From positions 820,465 through 884,464 of the forward strand of contig NC_000853.1 of NCBI RefSeq assembly GCF_000008545.1: a stretch of 64,000 nucleotides of DNA, given 5' to 3'. This DNA comes from Thermotoga maritima MSB8. GTDB taxonomy: Bacteria > Thermotogota > Thermotogae > Thermotogales > Thermotogaceae. Both the position numbers and the translations under genes were made by a program. Positions 29,311-33,389 of this stretch are shown piece after piece. Each line of letters begins with the position of its first letter. Position 1 is the first letter of the stretch. The notes under the pieces are model-generated. The model ran no database searches and was not told the DNA's origin. It saw only the letters and a list, made by a program, of their open reading frames with translations.

Positions 29311-29320
29311 AATTAAAATG

Positions 29321-29349
29321 AAGAGGGGCTAACGCCCCTCTTCTGTTTT
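29321..29349. terminator. Bidirectional terminator between pheT and tetR
   Basis: AAGAGGGGC (29321-29329) pairs with GCCCCTCTT (29334-29342), loop TAAC, with T-rich flanks on both strands. The tetR stop codon lies in the loop, so the last tetR codons form one arm. Confidence 0.85.
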
Positions 29350-29901
29350 CACATTGAGCAGTCCTCTGAGTATCATTTCCTGGATGTTTTGAAGCAGTCT
29401 CTTATCCTTTGGAACGTCTCCGAACGAATTGACTATCAGTTCCGCAGCGGCCCGGGAATCGAGATCTTTGTAAACGTAGTTTTGTTTCTTCCCTTCTTCT
29501 ATGAGTTCTTCGACTCGCTTTATGAAGCTTTCATAACGTTCTCTGAGTTTCGACCATTTTTCTTCTTCGAATCTGACGGTCGATTTTTCTTTCTCGATGA
29601 TTTCGTTCAAAACGGTTTTATTCAGGACAAAATCAACGTAGGACTTCAGAAACTTCTTTATCTTCGCAAAGTAAGAATTCGTCTCTTCGGTGACGGCGAA
29701 AAGATGGCTCTCCAGCTCCTCGAGTGCTTCTCTCCAGACTTCTTCGAAGAGTTTGTCTTTGCTCGGAAAATAGTAGTAGATGAGGGCCTTCTTCACACCG
29801 GCCTCACGTGCGATTTCTTCCATACTTACTCCATCGTAGCCGTATTTTGAGAATGCCTTCCTCGCCGCTTCGAGGATTTTCCTCCTTGTTTCGGAGCTCA
29901 A
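29329..29901 (-). CDS. TetR-family transcriptional regulator
   Basis: 190 aa from TTG 29901, preceded by GGAGGGA. The N-terminal helix-turn-helix (residues about 5-50) reads AFSKYGYDGVSMEEIAREAG and ALIYYYFPSKDKLFEEVW, which is classic TetR. The C-terminal ligand domain is not assignable. It follows the radical-SAM gene by 15 bases on the same strand. An 18-bp TetR-type palindrome lies upstream of that gene, which points to autoregulation of the pair (inference). Confidence 0.92.
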   Translation of the reverse strand: MSSETRRKILEAARKAFSKYGYDGVSMEEIAREAGVKKALIYYYFPSKDKLFEEVWREALEELESHLFAVTEETNSYFAKIKKFLKSYVDFVLNKTVLNEIIEKEKSTVRFEEEKWSKLRERYESFIKRVEELIEEGKKQNYVYKDLDSRAAAELIVNSFGDVPKDKRLLQNIQEMILRGLLNVKTEEGR

Positions 29902-29916
29902 TTCAATCCCTCCACA

Positions 29917-31365
29917 TCAGTCCCTGTAGCGTTTATCCACTGCGAGGAGTTTTTCTTTGTCTGCGTACCTCCTCATTCTCACTTCGTAGCTGTAAACTCC
30001 TCTGTTGGCAGGATAGATCTCGGAGTAACCTTCTTCGTACCAGAGTTTGTCTGCGTATTTCTTCCATTCGGCTGCGAGTTTGTCCAGTTCGGGCGCGAGA
30101 TCTGTGATGACCCTTTCGGATCCCTCGTGCTGTGGTTTTGCGTTGAAGGCTCTCACCATGGCTCTGAAGACTTTCGGGTTGTCAATTATCGGACACGGTC
30201 TGAAGAGATTGTCGCTGTAAGGGATCATCCTCTTGTAGGCTTCGAAGAACGGTGATCTCAAGATGTCGATGAGTTTTTTCTCACGAATGCTGTCCACCGC
30301 GAACTGCTGGAAGACACAGGGTTCTACATAGCCTTTCGCGTTTATGTGGAGGTACTTGGCACCTGCTGCGAGACAGCCATTGGTGAGGAACCCGTGGTTC
30401 CAGAAGTCGGCAACGAAAGCGAATCTTCCGCTGAGTCTGAGCTGTTCGAGTTTGTGGAATCTTTCGTATCTCTGCTGTGGTGTGGGAACGAGGTCCATCG
30501 TTGGATTCATTCCCACGGGCATGAACTGGTAAACCCACACGTAAGAAACTCCCTGTTCTTCGAGAAAGTCCCAGAATTCATCTTTCATTATGGTATCGTG
30601 GTTCATTCGTGTTGCCGTCACAGAAGCTCCGAAGATCACACCATGTCTTCTGAGCCTTTCCCAGGCTTCGAGGACTCTCTTGAATATTCCCCTTCCTCTT
30701 CTCCAGTCTGTGTCGGTTTCAAATCCTTCCACAGATATGGAGACCGTCACATTTCCAAGTTCTGCGAGTTTCTTAGCGGTTTCTTCTTTTATCAGAGTTC
30801 CGTTGCTGTAAACGAGGAAGTAGCTGTCTTTGAACTCTTCGAATATGTCCATCAGGTGAGGCCAGAAGAAGGGCTCACCACCGGTGATGATGAAGAAGTA
30901 TATTCCCAGGTCGTTGGCCTGTTTCAAGATGTCTCTGACTTCATCGTGGGAGAGCTCGTATTTTCTACCGTAAAGTCCCGCATAGCACCCAACACAGTTC
31001 AGATTACAAGCGTATGTGGGGCTCAGAACGAGGAGTTTTGGGAGCACCGTTTTGTACTCGTGCATCTTTTCCTGCCTGATAGGTTCTCCGAGAGCGAACT
31101 CGTTGATGATCAGGTTGTTTATAACCCCTTCAACACACCTTGGACTTGCTTTTTTGAAAACGTTCACCCATGACATCACCATGGGATGTCTTTCTTTTGC
31201 GAGGTCAGCCAGTTTTCGAAGGCCGCTCTTCGCGGGCTCCTTCGTGAACATACTCAGGGTACCGAAGATTTTTCCAAGAGTTTCCACTTCAGCGTTTCTG
31301 ACAAATGAGCCAACGAGTTTTCCCGCCTGACGATAGATCATTCCTTTGATTCCACCTACTGCCAT
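29917..31365 (-). CDS. Radical SAM protein with long N-terminal region, TetR-linked
   Basis: 482 aa. The 4Fe-4S cysteines are Cys120, Cys124 and Cys127 (YACNLNCVGCYAG). The SAM-binding block FIITGGEPFFWP follows. The ~110 residues before the core and ~100 after it are not part of the usual radical-SAM barrel. A C-terminal auxiliary-cluster region is suggested by CLAAGAK, EPCVFQQ and RPCPIID, a reduced SPASM-like set. The reaction is unknown. It heads an operon with tetR and has the TetR-type operator in its promoter region. GGAGGTGG precedes the ATG. Confidence 0.85.
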   Translation of the reverse strand: MAVGGIKGMIYRQAGKLVGSFVRNAEVETLGKIFGTLSMFTKEPAKSGLRKLADLAKERHPMVMSWVNVFKKASPRCVEGVINNLIINEFALGEPIRQEKMHEYKTVLPKLLVLSPTYACNLNCVGCYAGLYGRKYELSHDEVRDILKQANDLGIYFFIITGGEPFFWPHLMDIFEEFKDSYFLVYSNGTLIKEETAKKLAELGNVTVSISVEGFETDTDWRRGRGIFKRVLEAWERLRRHGVIFGASVTATRMNHDTIMKDEFWDFLEEQGVSYVWVYQFMPVGMNPTMDLVPTPQQRYERFHKLEQLRLSGRFAFVADFWNHGFLTNGCLAAGAKYLHINAKGYVEPCVFQQFAVDSIREKKLIDILRSPFFEAYKRMIPYSDNLFRPCPIIDNPKVFRAMVRAFNAKPQHEGSERVITDLAPELDKLAAEWKKYADKLWYEEGYSEIYPANRGVYSYEVRMRRYADKEKLLAVDKRYRD

Positions 31366-31385
31366 CCAACCACCTCCATATTTTT

Positions 31386-31403
31386 TTACTTACCGGTCGG
31401 TAA
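31386..31403. promoter_or_regulatory. TetR-type operator upstream of the radical-SAM/tetR operon
   Basis: TTACTTACCGGTCGGTAA is an 18-bp palindrome built on ACCGGT with TTAC/GTAA ends; 14 of 18 positions are symmetric. This is the common TetR-family operator shape. On the minus strand it lies just after a possible -10 TAGAAT (complement of 31408-31413) and before the Shine-Dalgarno. Confidence 0.8.
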
Positions 31404-31446
31404 AAATATTCTATGCACACATAATAACAATCGAGTTTCATTTAAG

Positions 31447-32418
31447 TTACTTTATGTTGTACCGTTCTTTGTTCAGGAAACAAATAGCTTCGTCTTTTTC
31501 GTGCTCTCTCAGCAAGTAGTAAGCCTTGCAACCTCCACCGCATTCGTTCAGGATGGGACACTGCTGGCAGGAAGCCGGGGAAGGAATGGGAGTGTATTCG
31601 TGCCAGATTTCCGAGAATTTCTTTTCTCTAACGTTCCCCATGTAGAATTCCTTTCTGTATCTGAAGTGCCCACAGGGGACGACTGTGCCATCGGCCAGAA
31701 CCGATGCATGTGTGATTCCTGCGGAACACGGCTTTCCTGATATAGATTCTTCCACGTAAAATGTCAAATGGTTTTTGTAATTTTCTATCACTCCAAGGAC
31801 GTGTTTTATAGCCACTCTCCACTCCTCGGGATTCATATCCAGTTCTCTTGCATGGATCATGCCCCTTCCAACCGGTATGAACCTATCCACATACAAAGCA
31901 TTAACTCCCAATTCCAGTGCGAGTTTTACCATATCTTCGAACTTTCTCCAGTTTCTCTTGTTTATCACGTTCAAAATGGTGACCTGAAACCCTTCATCCA
32001 CGAAGTTTTTGATGCCTTGAACTGCTCTTTTGAAGTTTCCGGTTCCTCTCACAAAGTCGTTGGTCTCAGGATCTGGTCCTTCAAGGGAAACTCCAATAAG
32101 CACGTCGGGATTGGCCTTCTTTATTTTCTGTACCATTTCCTTGGTGGCGAGCGAACCGTTGGTGTTGATCATGAGACGCTGTCCGACCTCTTTTCCGAAG
32201 GCAAGAATATCCAGTATTTGAGGGTGAAGAAGAGGTTCGCCACCCACAATATCGAGAGCCCAGGTGCCCAATTCTTTCATATCGAGTATCAGTTCCTTTA
32301 TTTCTTCGAAACTCAGCTCTTCAAGATGGGGTTTTCCGGCCTCGCAGTAGCAGTGTTTACATCTGAAGTTGCATCGCAGTGTCAGTTCGTATTCCACAAT
32401 AAAAGGTGGGTTTCGCAT
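31447..32418 (-). CDS. Radical SAM/SPASM-domain protein
   Basis: 323 aa. The SAM cluster cysteines are Cys16, Cys20 and Cys23 (LRCNFRCKHCYCEAG), followed by DIVGGEPLLHP. The C-terminal SPASM region has GKPCSAG, VVPCGHF, CQQCPILNECGGGCKAYY and a final Cys, enough for auxiliary Fe-S clusters. Relatives include peptide maturases and heme- or PQQ-related enzymes, so the substrate is unassigned. I found no Cys-rich precursor peptide next to it. GGAGGTG upstream of the ATG is partly inside a hairpin. It lies 81 bases upstream of the other radical-SAM gene on the same strand. Confidence 0.88.
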   Translation of the reverse strand: MRNPPFIVEYELTLRCNFRCKHCYCEAGKPHLEELSFEEIKELILDMKELGTWALDIVGGEPLLHPQILDILAFGKEVGQRLMINTNGSLATKEMVQKIKKANPDVLIGVSLEGPDPETNDFVRGTGNFKRAVQGIKNFVDEGFQVTILNVINKRNWRKFEDMVKLALELGVNALYVDRFIPVGRGMIHARELDMNPEEWRVAIKHVLGVIENYKNHLTFYVEESISGKPCSAGITHASVLADGTVVPCGHFRYRKEFYMGNVREKKFSEIWHEYTPIPSPASCQQCPILNECGGGCKAYYLLREHEKDEAICFLNKERYNIK

Positions 32419-32545: not shown

Positions 32546-32716
32546 TTGGAGAAGAAAGTATCCAGAAATCCCCGTGTTTTATCGCAGATAGATTTGCTCA
32601 AATTGATGACCGATGGAGATGAAAGTGCTCTCAGGGAAATAAAGAGACGTTTGGGCCTTGACGAGAAGAAAGAAAGAGATAACGATGAAAAGCAGAAAGT
32701 TTCCGATAAGATTTGA
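32546..32716 (+). CDS. Small charged protein of unknown function (56 aa)
   Basis: An open frame from TTG 32546 (Shine-Dalgarno GAGGTGA six bases before) to TGA 32714-32716. The product is very rich in Lys, Arg, Glu and Asp, with a central amphipathic stretch LLKLMTDGDESALREIKRRL. It has no Cys and no signal peptide. It overlaps the start of the ABC-ATPase-like gene by 32 nt, which suggests coupled translation. I do not recognise the family. An overlapping 27-codon frame from ATG 32539 is less likely. Confidence 0.55.
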   Translation: MEKKVSRNPRVLSQIDLLKLMTDGDESALREIKRRLGLDEKKERDNDEKQKVSDKI

Positions 32717-33389
32717 AAACTTTTCCTTATCCGTGGATGGTAAAAGTGTGCTTGAGAATATTACTCTTTCCTTTGTTGAAGGAATGAACGTCCTTTACGG
32801 TCCAAGAGGATCTGGGAAATCTTCCCTCCTCAGATCAATTGTCAAGTTGAACACCGAAATATTCAATGAGATTTCCAGAAGCGGTTCCGTCTATTTGTTC
32901 GATCAAAACGTTGAGGATCTTGATGACATTTACGTTAGAAAAAACGCTCTGTATCTCGATACGAGCTTCATCGATGCGATGAACCAATACACATTCGATG
33001 AATTTCTTAAACTCGCTCTGAAAAGAAAGATTTCTCTGGAGAATTTTTCCGAGAAACTCGATGATCTTGGAATACTGAGAATGCTTATTCGCGGTCAAAA
33101 GACCCCCCTTTCTGTGTTTTCGCCTGCCGAAAAGATCTCCCTCCTTCTTTTCATTCTCGAGCAGAAAAAGCCTCGCGTTATTTTAATGGACTGTCTGCTG
33201 GATCACCTGGACGATGAAAATCTGGAGAAGATAATGGACATGTTCCTCAAGATGAAGGAAGAACGAACTTTTGTCATATCCACCCGCATTCTTCAGAGGT
33301 TTCTCTACATCGCCGATTTGTTGGTGATACTGAATAATGGTAGAATCAATTATACGGGGAGTCCAAAGGATTTTGTTTTGAGAATGTGA
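32685..33389 (+). CDS. Degenerate ABC-type ATPase (PstB-like fold)
   Basis: 234 aa from ATG 32685. The Walker A GPRGSGKS (residues 39-46) is intact and the following stretch resembles PstB. The rest is eroded: the LSGGQ signature is LSVFSPAE (142-149), Walker B ends VILMDC with Cys170 in place of the catalytic Glu, and the H-loop has STR (Arg201) in place of His. It may bind ATP without normal hydrolysis. No permease or binding-protein gene is adjacent. Its start overlaps the small upstream ORF. Confidence 0.7.
   Translation: MKSRKFPIRFENFSLSVDGKSVLENITLSFVEGMNVLYGPRGSGKSSLLRSIVKLNTEIFNEISRSGSVYLFDQNVEDLDDIYVRKNALYLDTSFIDAMNQYTFDEFLKLALKRKISLENFSEKLDDLGILRMLIRGQKTPLSVFSPAEKISLLLFILEQKKPRVILMDCLLDHLDDENLEKIMDMFLKMKEERTFVISTRILQRFLYIADLLVILNNGRINYTGSPKDFVLRM

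Follow-up and report, generated by a model that had tools for sequence, protein, structure and literature searches.

The genome of Thermotoga maritima MSB8 (G000, a single contig of 1.86 Mb) carries 2 radical S-adenosylmethionine (SAM) genes and a gene for a TetR-family regulator, one after the other on the minus strand, within the 64,000-nucleotide stretch analyzed here, hereafter called the window. The arrangement raises the question of whether the 3 genes form a single modification locus that is induced by a small molecule, and on what the enzymes act. An earlier interpretation of the same DNA, here called the sequence-only reading, had proposed such a locus. The open reading frames bear out the row of genes that it described, transcribed in the order P3 (of the SPASM type), P2 and tetR, with gaps of 81 nt between P3 and P2 and 15 nt between P2 and tetR. 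The main features are as follows.

31365-29917, minus strand: P2, a radical-SAM enzyme of 482 amino acids with the motif CNLNCVGC, a helical N-terminus and a twitch-like auxiliary region (open reading frame, Pfam, relatives, structure model, invariant cysteines)
29901-29329, minus strand: tetR, a TetR-family regulator of 190 amino acids with a TTG start, directly 3' of P2 (open reading frame; PF00440, the TetR_N domain, at 75.8 bits against a Pfam cut-off of 24; adjacency, spread)
31385-31404, minus strand: TetR-type operator, the 20-mer TTTACCGACCGGTAAGTAAA, 19 nt 5' of the P2 start codon (palindrome, conservation; also before tetR in deep branches)
32418-31447, minus strand: P3, a radical-SAM/SPASM protein of 323 amino acids (open reading frame, Pfam, spread, neighbors)

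P2 and tetR very likely constitute an autoregulated 2-gene unit, in which TetR would repress both P2 and itself through the operator; repression is considered very likely because the operator is conserved and co-varies with TetR. The palindrome, which agrees with the earlier assignment to P2 of an operator of its own, has the pattern TTTAC-NN-ACCGGT-NN-GTAAA. When up to 3 mismatches were allowed, it had a single match in the window and none in 100 shuffles. The symmetric core occurred at 2 sites in the whole genome, namely the operator and position 748722, which reads as lying inside a coding region, and a genome scan at 3 mismatches gave about as many matches as its reversed control. The regulator in the window showed no more than distant similarity to TetR proteins of solved structure.

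According to a scripted rule, tetR was located directly 3' of P2 in 37 of the 50 fetched P2 loci, 48 of which are distinct (L073 and L074 duplicate L015 and L025). Beyond these 37, tetR overlapped P2 to a larger extent in L083, L012 ended at a contig edge, and tetR was placed 3.2 kb from P2 on the opposite strand in L085. The 14-base core TKACYGAMCGGTMA was found with at most 1 mismatch within 130 bp 5' of P2 in 39 of the 46 usable loci (2 loci with short or N-filled upstream sequences were dropped), where 0.02 matches were expected, and in none of 45 control regions; the weight of this count is lessened, since the motif was chosen after viewing the same loci on which it was then tested. Locus L082, in which tetR is adjacent and a match to the operator is absent, speaks against the inferred control.

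Because the motif was chosen on the tested loci, the independent test, which is the co-variation of TetR and operator, matters more. A TetR ortholog was identified in 77 of the 103 Thermotogota genomes, including 3 of 3 in family f7, 10 of 10 in f8 and 0 of 21 in f10, and all 5 of the f10 P2 loci examined lacked the operator. In 4 of these 5 loci another, weakly similar TetR gene was located directly 5' of P2, an arrangement noted for L078, L080, L081 and L084 of family f10 and for L112 and L114. In families f7 and f8, where tetR is situated away from P2, the operator stood shortly upstream of, or at, the start of the regulator gene itself in 7 of the 11 loci when 1 mismatch was allowed and in 9 when 2 were allowed (10 loci plus L085; L226 and L232 had no close operator). 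Furthermore, the P2 proteins of the deep-branching f7 and f8 loci L085 to L090 were only 36% to 43% identical to P2 and formed a separate lineage in the tree, with the same operator upstream. Since the P2 of f7 and f8 represents a different lineage, the regulator appears to have stayed with the function. The conserved and co-varying operator thus upholds TetR control, and hence probable induction by a small molecule, for P2. It does not extend to P3, which the sequence-only reading had included in its ligand-inducible locus, since the sole operator in the window stands in the gap from P3 to P2 and not ahead of P3.

P3 is an orphan, a SPASM enzyme in its own right whose position upstream of P2 in Thermotoga is fortuitous. 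It matched the Pfam models Radical_SAM (107 bits) and SPASM (PF13186, 40.4 bits against a cut-off of 21.5), and its SPASM region is full, with 7 cysteines after the core as counted by eye in the translation. Orthologs at E ≤ 1e-80 were present in 36 of the 103 genomes by our own count: all 14 genomes of family f1, 17 of the 20 of f3, all 3 of f11, and 1 each of f4 and f5. That P3 and P2 act jointly in one pathway could be read from their common strand and short spacing, and from an adjacency that every one of the 7 genomes of the genus shares with the sister genome G090. These 8 are, however, the only cases among the 36 P3-bearing genomes, some of the remaining 28 of which are draft contigs, and 62 of the 97 P2-bearing genomes had no P3 ortholog at E ≤ 1e-80. 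The neighbors of P3 also varied from clade to clade and included, in different sub-clades, either an NfeD-like protein with an uncharacterized 172-amino-acid protein (4 loci each) or, in 7 loci, an MFS-like transporter and, in 6, an FKBP-like protein, with names assigned by eye from the sequence. P3 remains an orphan because it so rarely adjoins P2 and its neighbors change by clade. With the operator separating the 2 genes as well, we regard a two-enzyme locus as highly improbable, and neither the joint modification locus of the sequence-only reading nor a conserved 3-gene unit withstood the comparison of gene neighborhoods.

What, then, does P2 act on? In Pfam, P2 matched Radical_SAM with 96 bits (residues 115-269) and SPASM with a short match of 27 bits. 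Its core motif CNLNCVGC is of the CxxxCxxC type, and cysteines 120, 124 and 127 were invariant in all 59 aligned relatives. Outside the core, only cysteines 331, 350 and 391 were invariant, together with histidine 340. The full set of SPASM cysteines for 2 auxiliary clusters was not found in P2, and because just 3 invariant cysteines lie outside the core we describe the region as twitch-like rather than as a full SPASM domain. The long N- and C-terminal regions, to which no domain had been assigned, are real and predicted to be folded: the AlphaFold model had a mean predicted local distance difference test (pLDDT) score of 94 and a predicted template modeling (pTM) score of 0.92, with 5 predicted N-terminal helices (residues 6-104) followed by the radical-SAM barrel and the C-terminal region. 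The first helix is amphipathic with a net charge of +4, which is compatible with a peripheral membrane protein and a possible membrane-binding N-terminus.

The best folds in the Protein Data Bank (PDB) were SkfB (Z 26.4), SuiB and anSME, and SkfB was also the best PDB match in sequence; the archaeal tetraether synthase Tes, also called GDGT-MAS (PDB 7tol), followed with Z 18.3 over 252 residues. The VIA-align list from which this ranking is taken places Tes well below the top, and we interpret only the families present in it. Taken by itself, the predicted fold leaves the substrate of P2 undecided. A search of PHROGs returned generic radical-SAM families only, and both P2 and P3 scored far under the cut-offs of every NCBIfam equivalog listed, including those for heme, mycofactocin, pyrroloquinoline quinone, sactipeptides and MoaA. 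The heme enzymes AhbD and NirJ2, with a cut-off of 500 bits, were rejected for both proteins (86 and 83 bits for P2, 143 and 144 bits for P3).

The resemblance to SkfB and SuiB, which are SPASM peptide maturases, would suit a peptide- or protein-modifying enzyme that works in the manner of sactipeptide or ranthipeptide maturases and is induced through TetR by a small molecule. We consider this unlikely. The best maturase-type scores of P2 were 55 to 70 bits against cut-offs of 265 to 650 bits, its invariant cysteines outside the core are 3 only, and the 3 small open reading frames (20 to 90 amino acids) in the intergenic gaps contain 1 to 2 cysteines each, in agreement with the earlier remark that no obvious cysteine-rich precursor gene lies nearby. 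Furthermore, P2 was present at E ≤ 1e-80 in 97 of the 103 Thermotogota genomes, a count made by ourselves because the automatic tally of 101 at 1e-10 includes fragments and weak cross-matches to other radical-SAM genes. Near-universal presence in a phylum is atypical of peptide systems. These data do not support a peptide-modifying role of P2. We noted in passing that a cluster of 4 other radical-SAM genes spans about 20 kb elsewhere in the genome (L052, L058, L061 and L063, at about 1325-1346 kb of G000:C1), 3 of which resemble Clo7bot/CefB-type peptide maturases at scores below the cut-offs; this cluster is a likelier site of peptide modification than the locus in the window.

The bacterial membrane-spanning-lipid synthase, Mss, was reportedly described by Sahonero-Canavesi and coworkers in Science Advances in 2022. 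It is known to us through papers that cite it, of which excerpts are used here (PMC13274423, PMC11868695, PMC11604127, PMC11767167). According to these excerpts, Mss was sought as a radical-SAM membrane protein with a CxxxCxxC motif (PMC11767167), and mss together with ger occurs in many families of Bacillota (Table 2 in PMC13274423). The mss gene of T. maritima was expressed in E. coli, where co-expression with ger is described as yielding ether lipids and no membrane-spanning lipids, while earlier single-gene work is called positive (PMC11604127). Diabolic acids, which are dicarboxylic acids of C30-C34 attributed to the joining of 2 fatty-acyl tails at the omega-1 position, are stated to occur in members of the Thermotogales (PMC8788747), and the lipids of T. 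maritima to shift from fatty acids to diacids toward the stationary phase. In an excerpt from a Black Sea survey, archaeal matches to Mss are confined to Woesearchaeia.

P2 relatives at E ≤ 1e-60 were identified in 145 of 299 genomes of the phylum centered on a Clostridia genome (Bacillota-type). The best 80 of 465 P2 relatives included Latescibacterota, Omnitrophota, Spirochaetota and Actinomycetota, and one woesearchaeon represented the sole archaeal group among them. The spread of the family thus resembles that published for Mss in Thermotogota, Bacillota-type genomes, Woesearchaeota and other phyla, when compared group by group and not by named producers of diabolic acids. A gene for a PlsC-like acyltransferase, the domain of which was checked in L162, was located about 0.9 kb or less 5' of P2 in the deltaproteobacterial-type genomes L152, L153 and L162, and a gene for an ABC1 (UbiB-like) kinase was located beside the P2 relative in L131, with the same gene cluster in L163. 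On the indirect evidence of its distribution, the CxxxCxxC core, the possibly membrane-binding N-terminus and the lipid genes beside some relatives, P2 is probably an enzyme of the Mss type. Clear membership in a known family, which the sequence-only reading had named as evidence against itself, was half borne out: no curated equivalog fits, and Mss is the family to which P2 most likely belongs.

Several observations weigh against this assignment. P2 has been likened to the published Mss by motif and taxonomic spread, not by sequence, and its fold is nearer to the peptide maturases than to Tes. Beyond Thermotogota, the neighbors of P2 were mostly non-lipid genes. Many Bacillota genomes contained 2 to 3 copies of the P2 family, for which reason the family may have several functions. 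Finally, another radical-SAM gene, L056, was found in 94 of the 103 genomes and is an alternative candidate for Mss. Two additional observations concern the family as such. A B12-binding radical-SAM gene was located directly 3' of P2 in 3 unrelated bacteria (domain checked in L135; L146 and L151 assigned by sequence cluster), and Marinitoga lauensis contained 2 copies of P2 on different contigs (L112 and L113), as was also seen for L078 and L079.

An alternative is that P2 modifies a different lipid, or an isoprenoid, for instance at the alkyl chain but without coupling to diabolic acids, and that the published mss is a different gene of T. maritima. The genome has 33 radical-SAM matches above the Pfam cut-off, L056 equals P2 in its spread across the phylum, and paralogs within the P2 family are numerous in Bacillota. 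On the other hand, L056 resembles B12-dependent enzymes, L054 was tried as Mss and rejected since it is patchy (25 of the 103 genomes), and the P2 family fits the published spread of Mss better than expected, if not decisively. This alternative is, in our judgment, improbable.

Tes offers a further comparison for P2 as an Mss-type enzyme. P2 aligns with it in the radical-SAM core and over a portion of its C-terminal region, and the profile match falls within the core (E 7e-8), whereas the N-terminal part of about 97 residues is unaligned and closer folds exist. GDGT-MAS is described as having 3 clusters and a mononuclear iron (excerpt of PMC11767167), as compared to the 3 invariant cysteines outside the core of P2.

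Taken together, it seems reasonably likely that P2 and TetR form a unit in which a lipid-coupling P2 is repressed until a small molecule is present; here, the gene layout, the operator and its co-variation with TetR, the spread of the family and the predicted fold come from computation, and repression by TetR at this site, the Mss identity, the lipid substrate and the class of ligand are what we infer. SAM would be cleaved at the cluster bound by CNLNCVGC, the resulting radical would abstract a hydrogen from the omega-1 position of a C16 tail, and coupling to a second tail would yield a membrane-spanning lipid. TetR bound to the palindrome would keep P2 and itself at low levels until an effector binds, and the likeliest small molecule in this role would be a metabolite of the acyl or lipid kind. 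The shift of T. maritima lipids to diacids toward the stationary phase fits TetR control of P2. As for the ligand, the sites reported for PfmR (TTHB023), a TetR protein of Thermus thermophilus, are TACCGACCGNTNGGTN, with an in-vitro consensus of the CTGACCGATCGGTCAG type, and resemble the P2 operator; excerpts of the same paper place PfmR sites before genes for fatty-acid synthesis and describe sites of this type as common to several regulators (PMC7022988). Because the PfmR palindrome is very similar, an acyl or lipid ligand is plausible by analogy, and TetR sites are too unspecific for more.

The TetR switch, which is common to most of the phylum, looks new; the enzyme itself is probably one that has been reported before. 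In contrast to the locus described here, no TetR/operator control is described for Mss in the excerpts cited, and phylum-wide control of this kind of an Mss-type enzyme was not described in the literature searched. A search for the presumed locus tags TM0823-TM0825 and Tmari_0825-0830 gave no relevant paper.

The P2 family was also observed outside its main range. Homologs of about 50% identity were located on the plasmids pFF1023_1 of K. pneumoniae (L222:8037-9338) and pEA5_1 of E. albertii (L223:2254-3633), and in genomes labeled Sodalis (L121:7893-9347) and Martelella alba (L122:120-1742). A midpoint-rooted maximum-likelihood tree with 67 rows placed these homologs in a single clade, on a long branch of 0.8, nested among those of Thermotogota, with support of 100/100 throughout. 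This points to a transfer of the genes from Thermotogota or from a closely related lineage. Queried with the Martelella alba sequence, the collection of E. coli genomes gave no enterobacterial-type P2 DNA.

The remaining features of the locus flank the 3 genes.

29320-29343, both strands: terminator-like hairpin of 10 pairs, working on both strands, between tetR and the convergent pheT
32658-33389, plus strand: gene for an ABC-type (PstB-like) ATPase, divergent from P3

Of 20 other P3 loci, just 2 had relatives of the ATPase at E ≤ 1e-3. A frame of 56 amino acids with a TTG start (32546-32716, plus strand), which is missing from the list of open reading frames, was noted 5' of the ATPase gene and resembles, by eye, a 60-amino-acid open reading frame that precedes a related ATPase gene in L187. 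A promoter scan gave no sigma-70 site 5' of P2.

How bacteria switch on the synthesis of membrane-spanning lipids was not described in the literature searched, and this switching becomes open to experiment with a 20-bp operator defined upstream of the likely synthase. The P2/TetR unit would gain in importance if the regulator senses lipids. Diabolic and iso-diabolic lipids have been linked to the climate proxies based on branched glycerol dialkyl glycerol tetraethers (brGDGTs), and the regulation of their synthesis therefore bears on how these proxies are read. More tentatively, and with a chance that we place a little below even, TetR may be a dedicated sensor for the transition from a bilayer to a membrane-spanning monolayer. 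Membrane-spanning lipids of bacteria would thereby gain their first transcriptional regulator, with an operator conserved from Thermotoga to the deep-branching Thermotogota, even where another lineage of the synthase is used, and the type of synthase under its control would be one that has moved onto enterobacterial plasmids.

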